Source: Desulfobulbaceae bacterium
Lineage (GTDB): Bacteria; Desulfobacterota; Desulfobulbia; Desulfobulbales; Desulfocapsaceae
NCBI GenBank assembly: GCA_008933635.1
Contig: WBUQ01000031.1
Span: 1 to 36,549 of the forward strand
DNA: 36,549 nucleotides
Direction: 5' to 3'
The translations under genes were made by a program, and so were the position numbers. Shown piece by piece: positions 16,607-21,889 of the stretch; positions within the stretch are counted from its first letter, which is position 1, and every line of letters begins with the position of its first letter. The notes beneath the pieces are model-generated. The model had not been told where the DNA came from, did not search any database, and worked only from the letters and a program-made list of their open reading frames with translations.

Positions 16607-18583
16607 CTATAATGGTGTGATGGCAATATACCCAACTGCCTCAGCCGCGTGATTGGTTTCTACGTCTTTCGATTGTTCTTCTTCAATCTTCATCCTGACG
16701 GTCGATAAAGAAAGATTCAGCGTACGGACCGTGGCGGTATCAGCTTCTGCATATGTTTGCATTTCGGCAAAGAAGTACGGCTTTGAATCGAACTGGGTCT
16801 GGAAAGCCAGGTCAGACCAGTAATTAGTATTATTCTGCGGGGTGTGCTGTGCCTCGAATTTCATTCCGGAGTACTCTCCAATGCCGGGCTCCCATGCGAT
16901 ATAACCTACAGTTTCAGGCTTGTGGTTCGCCCTGTTTTTTTCCCGTTCCTGCATCTTGTATTCGACCGAAGTTGTTGTGGCATTCTTGAGTCGACCGCTG
17001 ACTACGGTTGCTTCGTTGGTAGTCATTATCTGGGTGACGACAACAGGCTTTTTATTGTACGCCTGTTGGAATGCCAGGTTCTGGAATGTAGCCGTGCCGC
17101 TGAATGTTCCTGCTTCGAGTTTCAGGCCGTTCTCAAGACTGTATACGCCTTTTTCCACAATAAGGATGCTGAAGGTTTCGAGAGAATGAGGGCTCCTGAT
17201 ATCATACCATTCCTCGACGCGTACTTCGCAGTCGGTGGGGGTGACGTTTCGGACGCGCACCGCGGCGGCTGCACTGTCGACATATCCCATCGGACCGGCA
17301 ACTATGACCGGGTCGGTGAACGGCTGGCTGAAGACTACTTTCTTCCAGGTGGTGTCGGCCTGAATCTCCTGTACCTCAAGTTTTATCGCTTCGGGAGCTT
17401 GAACGCTGACCACTTGCGTTTTCACTGATGAGTCTCCCTTGTCGTCGACAACCTCAAGAGCGACTGTGTAGTCACCCGCCTCGGTGAAGATGTGCTGGGC
17501 GGTCACGCCGTTGGCGGTCGAGCCGTCTCCAAAGCTCCAGATATAGCTGGAGATCGTGCCGTCGGCATCGGTCGAGCCACTGCCGCTGAACGTTACGTTG
17601 AGAGGTGCGTTGCCAGATATCGGCGAGGCAGTTAAAGAGGCGACCGGCAGTTCGTTCTCGATGACAGTTGGGGCGGATACAAGCACCGGAGTGCTGGTCT
17701 GTGCGGACAGGCCAGCGCTGTCGGTGACCGTCAGGGTTGTATGGTAAGTTCCAGCCGTGGCAAATGTGTGGGAGACTAAAGCGCCCTCTGCAGTTGCGCC
17801 GTCGCCAAAGGCCCAAATATAGGACATGATTGGGGGCTGTGCGCTGCTTGATCCACTGCCGTCGAAGTTGACGCTGAGCGGAGCTTCACCGATGGTGGCT
17901 GATGACGAGATGACAGGGATCGGTGCTGATTGAGTTGGAGGCGGAGTCGTGGCAGGAGCGATTACGGTGATCACAACGCTGCTTTGCTGTGTCAGCCCGT
18001 CTGTATCTGCGATCGTGAGTGTTGCTGTGTAACTTCCCTCGGATTGGTAAACATGTGTAACGGTGGCCCCAGTTGAAGTTTGACCGTCGCCGAAAGACCA
18101 TGCATAGCTGCTGATGGAACCAGTGGATTGAGAACCGTCAAATGTCAGATTGAAAGGAGCTTCTCCGGTCTGACTGGCTGTGACGATGACTGCGTTCAGA
18201 GGTGTGGATGTGGTCGGCTCAGGCACAGAAACGATATCGGAATAACCGCTTTCCTCCGAGCCATTGTAGGCTGTCAGGGCAAAATGGTAGGTTGTGTTTT
18301 CGTTAAGACCAGTGATGGTGAAAGTTGTCACCTTGCCGACATCGATTGGCGATGAACCCTGCGTTGCCCCAGTACCGTCAAAGGGGGGGGTCGGGTCCCC
18401 ACCGATTTTGTAGTATAATTTATATCCCTCAACGGGTTCGGGATTGGCGGACCAGGAAAACGAATAGTCCTTTGCAAAGGCAACGGTCGTCGTGAGAAAG
18501 GAGATGACTCCGACGCACACAAAGATGATCGCCTGGAGAGAATGAGCGGGCCAATGAGGTCGTGTGTTATTTGAAGTTTTCAT
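16607..18583 (-). CDS. Secreted protein with FN3-like domain, three PKD domains and a triple lectin-like C-terminal repeat
   Basis: Predicted exported surface protein, 658 aa. A signal sequence lies near residues 15-37 (IIFVCVGVISFLTTTVAFA). Next is a fibronectin III-like domain (about 40-122). Three PKD domains follow at about 133-210, 223-305 and 314-396, each with the SFGDG or AFGDG core (SSYAWSFGDG, MSYIWAFGDG, SSYIWSFGDG). From about 415 to the end there are three related units of about 75-80 residues, beginning WKKVVFSQPFTDPVIV, FQNLAFQQAYNKKPVVV and WSDLAFQTQFDSKPYFF; the last two end with VGYIA. These resemble H-type lectin folds. There is no PEP-CTERM anchor. A run of eight C in the coding strand (18383-18390) lies in the FN3 region. 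Carbohydrate binding is an inference. Confidence 0.8.
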   Translation of the reverse strand: MKTSNNTRPHWPAHSLQAIIFVCVGVISFLTTTVAFAKDYSFSWSANPEPVEGYKLYYKIGGDPTPPFDGTGATQGSSPIDVGKVTTFTITGLNENTTYHFALTAYNGSEESGYSDIVSVPEPTTSTPLNAVIVTASQTGEAPFNLTFDGSQSTGSISSYAWSFGDGQTSTGATVTHVYQSEGSYTATLTIADTDGLTQQSSVVITVIAPATTPPPTQSAPIPVISSSATIGEAPLSVNFDGSGSSSAQPPIMSYIWAFGDGATAEGALVSHTFATAGTYHTTLTVTDSAGLSAQTSTPVLVSAPTVIENELPVASLTASPISGNAPLNVTFSGSGSTDADGTISSYIWSFGDGSTANGVTAQHIFTEAGDYTVALEVVDDKGDSSVKTQVVSVQAPEAIKLEVQEIQADTTWKKVVFSQPFTDPVIVAGPMGYVDSAAAAVRVRNVTPTDCEVRVEEWYDIRSPHSLETFSILIVEKGVYSLENGLKLEAGTFSGTATFQNLAFQQAYNKKPVVVTQIMTTNEATVVSGRLKNATTTSVEYKMQEREKNRANHKPETVGYIAWEPGIGEYSGMKFEAQHTPQNNTNYWSDLAFQTQFDSKPYFFAEMQTYAEADTATVRTLNLSLSTVRMKIEEEQSKDVETNHAAEAVGYIAITPL

Positions 18584-18734: not shown

Positions 18735-18896
18735 TGTAGTGTCAATCAGCGTCGAAAAATGCCCCCTCTATTTAAGAACAAATCATCCTCTCTTCTTGAG
18801 TCGATAAGACTCGTTTCCTGTTTTAATGATGTCGCAATGATGGGTCATCCGATCCAGCAAGGCAGTCGTCATCTTCGCATCACCAAAGGGATCCTT
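18735..18896 (-). mobile_element. istB: IS21-family remnant: right end and istB 3' fragment
   Basis: Minus-strand codons from about 18895 to 18783 read [20 protein letters not shown] and continue [17 protein letters not shown]-stop. This is the C-terminus of IstB, the AAA+ helper ATPase of IS21 transposons. Just outside it, 18735-18766 carries a terminal sequence starting TGTAGTGTCAATCAGCGTCG, matched in inverted orientation at 21062. The N-terminal four-fifths of istB is missing; the reading frame is cut at the boundary of the IS5-family element. Confidence 0.75.
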
Positions 18897-20209
18897 GAAT
18901 ATTCATCCATTTAACCTGCAAGGATGAAAAATCCTGAAATGCATCTCAAATAAGCTGTTTTGAAACATATCCATACTCATATCTTTCGTTCATATCAGGT
19001 CTTTTCACCTGGTAAGAAACGATATTTGGCCATAGGGTGCACTTCATCCTTGCAATGTGACAAGAAGAGAATATCGACTCAGGTTGTAGGCCATGTTTCG
19101 CAGGCCAACTGCTGCCGTTGCCCTCACGAAGCCGATGCATCGCAAAATCGTATTGCCTGCTCGCTGAGCCTGGAAACCAAAGATATACTCAATTCTGGAA
19201 CGAATCTTTGCGCCAATCCGATTTCCTCTCTTTTCCCAATCGTTGAGCTTCTTGTAAGGAGACCCTTTCCGTTGAATGTGCTCTCGATAGCCCATCTTCT
19301 CCAACCAGTCGATCTTCTCTTCAGAGCGATAGGCAGAATCAGCCCAAACATCTCCACTGGTGTTCTCAGGATCAAGCAGTTCTTCAAAGACATTGCTGTC
19401 GTGCACTTCCGCACTGCTCACCGAGTAACTACGGATCAGTTTGTGCTTCACATCAGGCGAGATATGGTTCTTGTAGCCAAAGAAATTCCTTCCATTCTTT
19501 TTGGTCCAGCGGGCATCGGTGTCTTTCTGGCTGCGCTTGTGATTGCTCCAGTTTTCTGGTTTGTCCCCAGCCTTGGTCTGCTGATTCTCTTCACGGCTGT
19601 TGCGTTGGATAGGTATCCTGACAATGTTGGCATCAACTATTTGTCCCTTTTGCGCCTTGAAACCTTTTTCCAACAAAAAGGCGTTGAACTGGGAGAACAG
19701 CGTTCCCACAACTCCGGCATTGGCGAGATCGTTGCGGAATCGCCAGATGGTTGTACAGTCGGGAATCTTGCTGGCGGCGTGCAGACCAAGAAACCGCGAA
19801 AACGAGTAGCGGTCGAGAATCTGGTATTCCAGCCCCTCGCCAGACAGATTGTACAGCGATTGCAGAACGAGAATCTTGAACATCAAGATAGCGTCAAAAC
19901 CGATGGGACCGGCATTCGACTTCTTCGCTTTCTTCCTGGCCTTTTCGATGGTTGGTCGAAAGATCTCCCAATCAATCTTTTCGTCGAGAGTTGCCAGTGG
20001 GTCGCCAGCAATGTCAATGCGCTGAAGACGCATATCAAAATCGAGAATTCCAAGCTGTTTCATGTTTTCTCCGGCTATGCAAGCTACTTTGAATATCACT
20101 GTTTTCATCGAATCGATAGTTCTCTATCGCCTTGATATCACAAAACTCGACTCAACCTGAAATCGGTAAAAATGCAATTATTCAAAGTAGCCTGCAGCAT
20201 GAATACTCA
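18896..20209 (-). mobile_element. IS5-family insertion sequence
   Basis: Complete-looking element of about 1314 bp with one transposase gene. The proposed imperfect terminal inverted repeats are TGAATATTCAT at 18896-18906 and ATGAATACTCA at 20199-20209, differing by one base. I could not identify a convincing target-site duplication, so the exact ends may be off by a few bases. It has inserted into or beside the istB fragment and separates the riboswitch at 20.5 kb from the PKD protein gene. Confidence 0.65.
19044..20063 (-). CDS. IS5-family transposase (DDE)
   Basis: DDE transposase of an IS5-family element, 339 aa from the ATG at 20063, which has GGAGA just upstream; an in-frame ATG at 20108 would add 15 residues. 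The N-terminal DUF772-type domain reads GFDAILMFKILVLQSLYNLS and PDCTTIWRFRNDL. The catalytic triad is visible as D in GQIVDANIVRIP, D in GDVWADSAYRSEEK, and E in AKIRSRIEYIFGF. The frame is intact, so the copy may still be active. Its GC content is lower than the left half of the window. Confidence 0.9.
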   Translation of the reverse strand: MKQLGILDFDMRLQRIDIAGDPLATLDEKIDWEIFRPTIEKARKKAKKSNAGPIGFDAILMFKILVLQSLYNLSGEGLEYQILDRYSFSRFLGLHAASKIPDCTTIWRFRNDLANAGVVGTLFSQFNAFLLEKGFKAQKGQIVDANIVRIPIQRNSREENQQTKAGDKPENWSNHKRSQKDTDARWTKKNGRNFFGYKNHISPDVKHKLIRSYSVSSAEVHDSNVFEELLDPENTSGDVWADSAYRSEEKIDWLEKMGYREHIQRKGSPYKKLNDWEKRGNRIGAKIRSRIEYIFGFQAQRAGNTILRCIGFVRATAAVGLRNMAYNLSRYSLLVTLQG

Positions 20210-20474
20210 GTTATTCCTCGATAATTTACACTTAGAGTGCTGTTATTAAAATGAATAAATTGATAATTCAGTGAATTTTTCTACTGGATTATTCAAGGAA
20301 CTCTTAAATGAAAACAGCATTATATAATTTCTTCATGTTACGCTATCAAAAATTTAAGTTACTTAAGGAATATTGTACGATACAAAAATTTAATTCTGCT
20401 TTTCTTTGCTATAAAAAATGTTAGCATTCATACATAATAATTTGTCGATTAATTAACACTTTTATCCTAGAAAT
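20210..20474. other. AT-rich stretch downstream of the riboswitch, no gene seen
   Basis: About 265 bp, very AT-rich, lying directly behind the riboswitch terminator in the minus direction and ending at the IS5-family element. On the minus strand only tiny frames occur (for example one of ten codons starting MKKLYNAVF). The gene that the riboswitch originally controlled is not here. Confidence 0.6.
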
Positions 20475-20513
20475 GAAAAAGCCGGGCTACCAATTTAAAT
20501 TGGTAACCCGGCT
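20475..20513 (-). terminator. Intrinsic terminator of the riboswitch expression platform
   Basis: On the minus strand the right arm and left arm AGCCGGGTTACCAATTTAAA and TTGGTAGCCCGGCT pair over about 17 bp with one mismatch. A TTTTT run follows at 20476-20480. The left arm overlaps the 3' part of the aptamer (the GCCGGGTTACC segment), the usual arrangement for a ligand-controlled terminator. Confidence 0.8.
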
Positions 20514-20571
20514 AGCTTATAAGCTCCGTGGCTTTCCGTCCCTGCCTTGCGGCAGGTTTGGCTTTTTCACA
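20498..20571 (-). ncRNA. GEMM-I riboswitch (cyclic di-GMP-I class aptamer)
   Basis: The minus strand shows the GEMM core. First comes AAAGCCAAACC, then a hairpin CCTGCC-GCAA-GGCAGG with a GNRA tetraloop. Next is GGGACGGAAAGCCACGG, and finally GCTAGCCGGGTTACC. The usual joining sequence is GACGCAAAGCC; here the C is G. The paired position in GGCAAACC is changed in step (GCCAAACC), so the ligand-pocket base pair is kept as C-G. The base equivalent to G20 of the Vc2 aptamer is G, which favours cyclic di-GMP over cyclic GMP-AMP. A terminator hairpin follows. No intact gene lies within 400 bp downstream; the next on this strand are the IS transposase and, at 18583, the PKD protein. Confidence 0.85.
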
Positions 20572-20856
20572 TTTTATATATGATCAATTATTGTTTTGAG
20601 ATCATATTTCTCAGAACTTGTCAATGGAATATTTATGAGTAGAGATAAAACTCTGTAGCTAAATTCAAACATTTGAATAGCTTGGGTAGAGTAAGCAATA
20701 GAGTACCCCCTACTATCAGTCACTACACTATTGCGGCATTGTGGTCATTTTTTGCTGCATCATATCACTAGTGTCCCAACGAGTCTGTAGAAAAAGCCGT
20801 TTTTAGAAGGTCATTTCGCAAGCTGAATTTGAAATGATTCCCCAAGTCGACTGTTG
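20572..20856. other. Region upstream of the riboswitch, with a possible IS-end fragment
   Basis: AT-rich to about 20770; the riboswitch promoter should lie here on the minus strand. At 20770-20840 the minus strand contains TTTTTCTACAGACTCGTTGG, which resembles the right end of common IS elements (IS1182-like in my memory). I can see no transposase reading frame attached to it. Confidence 0.3.
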
Positions 20857-21062
20857 TCAACAATTGTTGTTTTCTTTCATGTCCGGCAATTTGGTTTCGT
20901 TATTATAGGAGATACTTCGGCGGCGTATCTTCGCTATCGTCTCCACTATCAGCATCCTCCATTCCTCCATGGCCAATTCTTGGCCATAGAGGAATACCAT
21001 GGGGGTCAATTTTCGACGCTGATTCCTTTGCTCAAGGGGTCATTATTGCATGCTGAACTACA
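20857..21062 (-). mobile_element. istA: IS21-family remnant: left end and istA 5' fragment
   Basis: On the minus strand a terminal sequence starts TGTAGTTCAGCATGC at 21062. It has two repeats of the type TCAGC...TGACCCC (TCAGCATGCAATAATGACCC and TCAGCGTCGAAAATTGACCC), as in IS21 multi-repeat ends. Then follows an ATG (20955) with MLIVETIAKIRRR, the N-terminus of the IstA transposase. After about 13 codons the match stops and the frame ends at 20857. It faces the istB 3' fragment at 18735, in the orientation expected if both came from one IS21 element, but nearly all of the interior has been replaced. Confidence 0.65.
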
Positions 21063-21076
21063 TTGTAGCTGCAAAA

Positions 21077-21889
21077 CTACTTCGTGGCGACCGTATTCGA
21101 CGTTTTCCCGCCAGAGGCCTTGCTGATTACCCAGATCAACCACTCCTGTTGCTTTTGGGAGAAGTCGGAATTTTTCTTTGAGAGGAATCCTTCCAGGGCA
21201 TCTGTATCCTTGAAGGATATGGAGTAATAGCCCTGGGCGAAGGCCCCGCGCCCAAGCAGGTTGACAGCGCCCTGAGTGTCTATTCCGACCATCAGGTCAT
21301 GGTTTTTGAATATTGTTGAACCTTCGGTTGTCGAAATTGTCCCATATCTGGCGTTGTTGATATAGCGGTACGAAAAGGAGCCGATGATCGCGATGAGGAT
21401 GAGGCAGAAGGTGATAGCCAGTCGCGTGCTGGTTTGCGGGGAGAATATGTCACCCAGGGAGAAGGGGATGCATTGCCTGATGGTTGATGCGATATCCGAG
21501 TGTCGGGCCAAACGAGGCTCCACAACATTCCCGGTGAATTGCTCGAGGTCGCTGATTGCACCGTGATCAGAGGGATCTGACATGGCGACCTCGAGGATGT
21601 TGTTGTTTTTCAGTCTAAGCGGAATGGCATCATATTTCCGGCAGAGGTGCCGGGGCAGTTTCTTGCGCACTTCCGGTGAAAAGCTCTTTTTGACATCAGT
21701 AATTTCGATTTCTAATTGTTTGGCCAGGATTTCAGCGAGTTGATCCTCACTCAAGGCCCCCATCCGCACCAGTATGTTGCCAAGTCGGCGGTAACCGGTG
21801 ACTTGTACTCTTAGGGCTTCGTTGAGGGTTTCCTGATTTACAAGATTTTGCTGTATCAATAGTTCGCCGAGAAGCATTTTGGCAGCCAT
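21077..21889 (-). CDS. Membrane-anchored MshEN-domain protein (probable cyclic di-GMP receptor)
   Basis: 270 aa. The N-terminus carries a MshEN/GspE-N domain with both 24-residue cyclic di-GMP-binding motifs (consensus RLGxxLVxxG, x6, LxxxLxxQ). Motif 1 is residues 6-29 (Leu7, Gly8, Leu11, Leu22, Leu26, Gln29; Arg replaced by Leu6 and the second Gly by Asn15). Motif 2 is residues 35-58 and complete (RLGNILVRMG, then Leu51, Leu55, Gln58). The two are separated by five residues, the standard spacing. The domain continues to about 140 (VAMSDPSDHGAISDLEQFTG). There is no ATPase domain. Instead, one membrane helix (about 156-175) leads to a C-terminal domain of about 95 residues that I do not recognise. 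The stop is 15 bp from the IS21-like end. Confidence 0.75.
   Translation of the reverse strand: MAAKMLLGELLIQQNLVNQETLNEALRVQVTGYRRLGNILVRMGALSEDQLAEILAKQLEIEITDVKKSFSPEVRKKLPRHLCRKYDAIPLRLKNNNILEVAMSDPSDHGAISDLEQFTGNVVEPRLARHSDIASTIRQCIPFSLGDIFSPQTSTRLAITFCLILIAIIGSFSYRYINNARYGTISTTEGSTIFKNHDLMVGIDTQGAVNLLGRGAFAQGYYSISFKDTDALEGFLSKKNSDFSQKQQEWLIWVISKASGGKTSNTVATK

Follow-up and report, generated by a model that had tools for sequence, protein, structure and literature searches.

What does an MshEN domain control when it is followed not by an ATPase but by a membrane helix and a further domain? This question is posed by a gene in the 36,549-nucleotide stretch of Desulfobulbaceae DNA analyzed here (contig WBUQ01000031.1, in the following called the window). 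The original prediction described its product as a single-pass membrane protein with exactly spaced cyclic di-GMP (c-di-GMP) motifs and an unrecognized C-terminal part, and proposed that it passes a c-di-GMP signal to the polysaccharide or exosortase machinery. The description of the protein is borne out by our analysis, while comparison of the gene neighborhoods of its homologues points to a different output.

Architecture of the MshEN protein and its family

The gene and the parts of its product are located as follows:

21077..21889, (-) strand: gene for a 270-aa protein consisting of MshEN domain, membrane helix and novel C-terminal domain (intact open reading frame, profile matches, 61 homologues)
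21716..21874, (-) strand: MshEN_N c-di-GMP motif region, residues 6-58 (NF053729, 57.2 bits; conservation over 58 homologues)
21470..21694, (-) strand: MshEN_C subdomain, residues about 66-140 (PF05157 stretch 72-140; AlphaFold2 model)
21362..21433, (-) strand: single membrane helix, residues about 153-176 (Kyte-Doolittle; AlphaFold2 model)
21116..21343, (-) strand: novel C-terminal domain, residues 183-258, beta5-alpha2 (AlphaFold2; invariant G, F, S and W)

The MshEN domain of the window protein comprises residues 6-140. It was matched above the respective cut-offs by the Pfam profile PF05157 (MshEN; 57 bits, cut-off 23.1) and by the NCBIfam model of the c-di-GMP motif, NF053729 (57.2 bits, cut-off 38, residues 7-58). 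MshEN domains contain two 24-residue motifs joined by a 5-residue linker (Wang et al. 2016; PMC5013675), and precisely this spacing is present, with motif I at residues 6-29, the linker at 30-34 and motif II at 35-58. When an AlphaFold2 model of the protein was compared with solved structures using Foldseek, MshE with c-di-GMP was the top match (5htl, E 2.7e-9, TM 0.71 when normalized by target), and the nearest solved folds to the MshEN part were the N-terminal domains of MshE, PilF, PilB and XpsE. The window protein shares with MshE, PilF and PilB (PF05157) the two motifs, the linker, the fold and, apart from two positions in motif I (see below), the conserved ligand residues, but a single membrane helix followed by a new C-terminal domain takes the place of their ATPase: PF00437, the ATPase domain, gave no Pfam match at E up to 1, in agreement with the original description, and neither did HAMP, GGDEF or EAL, nor was any cytoplasmic output domain other than MshEN found with Pfam. 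Two further NCBIfam models, NF012033 (78 bits, cut-off 537) and NF008411 (53 bits, cut-off 1170), matched only with their C-terminal MshEN-like parts and far below their cut-offs.

Motif II of the window copy is canonical. In motif I, Leu6 replaces the canonical Arg and Asn15 the canonical Gly, the other key residues being present. In the 58 of the 61 homologues that were aligned, to which all residue counts refer, the ligand residues are mostly canonical, unlike those of the window motif I: Gly8, Gln29, Arg35, Gly37, Leu51, Leu55 and Gln58 are kept in 56-58 sequences, Arg is found at position 6 in 40, and position 44 holds Gly in only 40. The residues originally named for point changes (Arg35, Gly37, Gly44 and Leu51) are without exception from motif II and leave motif I unrepresented; three of them belong to the strictly kept set, but Gly44 does not. 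In the homologue from locus L105, motif I is scrambled, possibly through a frameshift. Exchanges of Arg9, Asp12 and Gln32 in MshE have at most a fivefold effect (PMC5013675), and the GSPII-B domain of PilF, in which the first motif positions are taken by Lys and Leu, binds c-di-GMP with a KD of 6 nM (PMC11731258); its K167L mutant, crystallized with c-di-GMP (8pe0), is among the structural matches found by Foldseek. As the changes in MshE are mild and PilF GSPII-B binds the ligand, Leu6 does not argue against binding and would probably be tolerated; the Gly-to-Asn exchange at position 15 is a separate, putative weak point. Motif and fold thus make the protein a candidate c-di-GMP receptor, and 17 GGDEF domains are encoded in its genome.

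The hydropathy profile has one prominent peak: the Kyte-Doolittle maximum begins at residue 153 in the window protein and at residues 153-161 in the homologues, with a median of 2.1 for the top stretch versus 0.8 for the next best, and a helix spanning residues 151-182 is seen in the AlphaFold2 model. The charge bias around the helix (positive-inside rule) does not discriminate topology; a single helix that follows a domain with a cytoplasmic ligand suggests that the C-terminal domain is periplasmic. This domain of about 75 residues, modeled alone with AlphaFold2 from 57 sequences, is compact and consists of five strands and two helices (pLDDT 92.0, pTM 0.82), and its residues Gly183, Gly213, Gly220, Phe235, Ser244 and Trp250 are invariant in 58/58 homologues. 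Searches with 14 members retrieved no Pfam family, and a profile of 57 sequences found no sequence relative in the PDB. No solved fold was a convincing match (Foldseek, best E 0.18; VIA-align, best Z 5.7 with an rmsd of 4.1 over 58 residues). The polo-box and the N-domain of KhtT gave no more than middling matches and are not put forward as relatives.

The C-terminal domain has 61 homologues, distributed over 59 of 258 genomes of a single order, that of the host, and a sample of the phylum (395 genomes) yielded none outside this order. All members with enough sequence combine MshEN with one helix and the C-terminal domain, and the full-length homologues, which come from many genera, are 39-54% identical. 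In locus L044, the C-terminal domain is present a second time just upstream of the intact gene, in the form of two fragments, one of which contains a stop; this is a decaying duplicate (G016:C1:5433430-5433668). As MshEN normally precedes an ATPase, the gene could in principle be a truncated secretion ATPase with random sequence at its end, the case that the original prediction had named as its own refutation. Intact homologues with a common architecture, invariant C-terminal residues, a confident fold and the lack of any PF00437 match rule this out, and we attach practically no probability to it. Fusions of MshEN to domains of unknown function have been noted in general (PMC5013675). In the literature searched we found no description of the family, its C-terminal domain or its partner (see below), and no link between MshEN and Desulfobulb-; the protein presents a known receptor domain in a new architecture, and the family is undescribed as far as our search reached.

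A secreted fn3/PKD protein encoded next to the candidate receptor gene

The gene that recurs beside the candidate receptor gene is also present in the window:

16607..18583, (-) strand: partner gene, encoding a secreted 658-aa protein with fn3, three PKD domains and a lectin-like C-terminal part (domain matches; recurrent linkage to the receptor)

Among the 58 loci with enough sequence for this analysis, a gene for a secreted fn3-type protein is the next co-directional gene to the receptor gene in 42, a linkage that spans 18/24 genera and 7/9 families, and in nine loci the gap between the two genes is below 50 nt. Other genes follow the receptor gene in about a quarter of the loci. The window partner contains fn3 and three PKD domains, and its lectin match is weak and stays below the Pfam cut-off; of 41 partners scanned, PKD was found in 39 and an H-type-lectin match in 21 (lectin at E 0.001). 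An N-terminal hydrophobic stretch is present in 35/42 partners, and a C-terminal hydrophobic anchor in none of 36 complete copies, which is why the partners do not look like exosortase substrates. The lectin-like half of the partner and the receptor co-occur in 33 of 258 genomes (Fisher p 1.5e-8, a value not corrected for phylogeny); the lectin-like half is present without the receptor in 34 genomes and the receptor without the lectin-like half in 26, so the association is not obligate. The conserved partner is described as a secreted fn3/PKD protein that is probably sugar-binding. The pairing itself is well supported genetically, and suggests a joint function by a mechanism for which a model is given below. 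In about 15 loci (L097, L098, L099, L101, L102, L118, L120, L124 and others), a conserved set lies a few genes upstream, mostly on the opposite strand; read by eye, it suggests a sensor kinase together with a response regulator and a lipoprotein, similar to QseE/QseF/QseG.

Riboswitches between candidate receptor and partner genes

Three further elements lie between the two genes in the window:

20498..20571, (-) strand: c-di-GMP-I-GGC variant riboswitch aptamer (RF03167 match)
20480..20513, (-) strand: intrinsic terminator of 15 pairs followed by a T run (fold z -6.2)
18744..21062, no strand: insertion-sequence debris around the riboswitch (IS ends, transposase)

The riboswitch noted originally at about 0.5 kb from the MshEN gene is real (71.7 bits with RF03167, gathering cut-off 59) and the distance is right, but it lies downstream of that gene and reads away from it towards the partner gene, and would hence act on the downstream gene and not on the MshEN gene. 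It is the only match of the c-di-GMP-I type found in its genome, and RF03167 describes a curated variant rather than the canonical type of the c-di-GMP-I aptamer: at the places where canonical aptamers have GGCAAACC and GACGCAAAG, that of the window has GCCAAACC and GACGGAAAG. It has C and G in place of a canonical G-C pair near the ligand site, a change that is shared by eight other high-scoring RF03167 matches of related genomes. Its ligand specificity may differ from that of canonical c-di-GMP-I aptamers. The 5' arm of the terminator overlaps the 3' end of the aptamer, an anatomy which predicts that ligand binding would prevent termination. The riboswitch is cut off from the partner gene by nested remains of insertion sequences, which have displaced its likely target: IS21-like ends are found at 18744 and at about 21062, an IS5-type transposase occupies 19044-20108(-), and a further IS end lies near 20775-20827. 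Two other contigs of the genome also contain the 142-bp IS21-like end, at 97%.

All loci were searched with Rfam and with a covariance model of our own over 62 sources, and most were found to be without a riboswitch. Canonical c-di-GMP-I aptamers are located between receptor and partner genes in three other genomes (G186, G221 and G042), 24-81 nt before the partner open reading frame, in leaders holding sequences able to pair with the ribosome-binding site (pairing read by eye). Including the window variant, this amounts to four riboswitches at receptor-partner stretches in 61 loci versus 0.018 expected; with an eightfold higher expectation that allows for intergenic bias, P is about 2e-5 for four and 5e-4 for three, the window being left out in the latter case. 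The adjacency is nevertheless rare, with these four of 61 loci and one degenerate copy, a c-di-GMP-I aptamer (E 0.15) likewise placed between receptor and partner genes (L111:7223-7278). Whether the window riboswitch is an ortholog of those in the three other genomes is doubtful because subtype and expression platform differ (terminator versus apparent Shine-Dalgarno pairing). Away from the receptor, riboswitches lie directly 5' of related fn3-type secreted proteins in G165 (twice), G081, G246 and G245 (loci L141, L142, L143 and L144, with one duplicated in G165). The adjacency both at and away from receptor loci therefore indicates that riboswitch control of this class of fn3-type proteins is recurrent. 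The earlier idea that two sensors of c-di-GMP meet at one locus can be retained in this general form, given a canonical riboswitch beside a homologous receptor gene in three other genomes; the tie to exosortase and polysaccharide machinery is not supported.

It is known that c-di-GMP-I riboswitches precede adhesin genes such as gbpA of Vibrio cholerae. The riboswitches described here similarly occupy the leader of a gene for a secreted, probably carbohydrate-binding protein, with the difference that the receptor locus also encodes a putative membrane receptor for c-di-GMP and that the window copy is a GGC variant. A link between a c-di-GMP riboswitch and a PKD domain was not found in our literature search.

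A model for the receptor and its alternatives

We consider it somewhat probable that the protein acts in the inner membrane as a receptor for c-di-GMP, together with the neighboring secreted fn3/PKD protein, often lectin-like, and sends its signal outward. Cytoplasmic c-di-GMP would bind to the MshEN domain, as motif and fold suggest, and rearrange the receptor, which is probably a dimer; the change would travel via the single helix to the putative periplasmic domain, and this domain could then control how the partner is exported, anchored or retained, acting on it directly or by way of a periplasmic factor. In some species, the riboswitch positioned in the partner leader may provide a second layer, such that c-di-GMP would both permit synthesis of the surface protein and license its display. 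With less confidence, and as a tentative proposal that we hold a little below even, these parts may amount to a new class of inside-out receptors, in which MshEN, helix and an undescribed periplasmic domain control the display of a PKD/lectin-like protein and form, together with the riboswitch, a two-level circuit convergent with LapD and DvhD. The likeness to these two (PMC3032545, PMC13090378) concerns only the proposed logic of a cytoplasmic c-di-GMP receptor, passage through the membrane and a periplasmic output governing a large surface protein. The parts are unrelated: the window receptor has no GGDEF/EAL, HAMP, PAS, HD-GYP or dCache and only one membrane helix. NfrB of Escherichia coli (PMC8669469) is likewise an inner-membrane protein with MshEN and without an ATPase, and NfrB-type glycosyltransferase models score best against the MshEN part of the window protein; unlike NfrB, however, the latter lacks a glycosyltransferase, carries MshEN at its N-terminus and has an fn3/PKD protein as partner instead of the outer-membrane protein NfrA.

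Three other readings need to be weighed. The exosortase-related output first envisaged, in which MshEN would regulate in trans a complex for polysaccharide synthesis or export, much as that of NfrB does in cis, draws on an EPS/XrtA locus that is real and lies directly upstream in the window (TIGR03006 deacetylase, TIGR03019 FemAB, exosortase and EpsI), on the best NCBIfam profile for the MshEN part, NF012033, being that of a glycosyltransferase with a C-terminal MshEN-like part, and on a few loci (L118, L119, L121, L100 and L044) whose next gene encodes PrsT, a sugar transferase or a deacetylase. Over all 61 loci, an exosortase is nevertheless present in only 5 and any of five XrtA/EPS components in 15, as opposed to the fn3/PKD gene that comes next in most loci; we regard this output as unlikely and the exosortase partnership as weak. 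Equally unlikely in our judgment is signaling from outside to inside, with the C-terminal domain sensing the envelope or the surface protein and altering c-di-GMP binding or buffering in the cytoplasm, so that MshEN would be the output. The architecture leaves the direction of the signal free and linkage to a secreted protein fits either one, but wherever the function of an MshEN domain is known, the domain serves as a receptor and controls an activity attached to or associated with it (PMC5013675, PMC8669469), and Pfam detected no other cytoplasmic output domain in the window protein.

Slightly less credible still is a secretion adaptor whose MshEN domain docks onto the platform of a type II secretion system or pilus and selects the fn3/PKD protein for export at high c-di-GMP. 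Its MshEN resembles the N-terminal domain of GspE/PilB, as the nearest solved folds listed above illustrate, and the N-terminus of the partner is signal-like while its C-terminus lacks a membrane anchor; no secretion-system cluster, however, recurs beside the receptor in the loci compared. This explanation overlaps with the inside-out receptor. Taken as a whole, a receptor that acts inside-out on a surface or matrix protein appears to be the most economical reading of the analysis.

Most MshEN proteins without an ATPase are uncharacterized, and a family with a paired surface protein offers a concrete output. If the model is true, the receptor would represent another, unrelated solution for moving a c-di-GMP signal across the inner membrane, and sensing of one messenger by riboswitch and by protein would be joined at one surface protein. 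For the order of the host, which probably includes sulfate reducers, this suggests a new way of switching cell-surface adhesion on and off.
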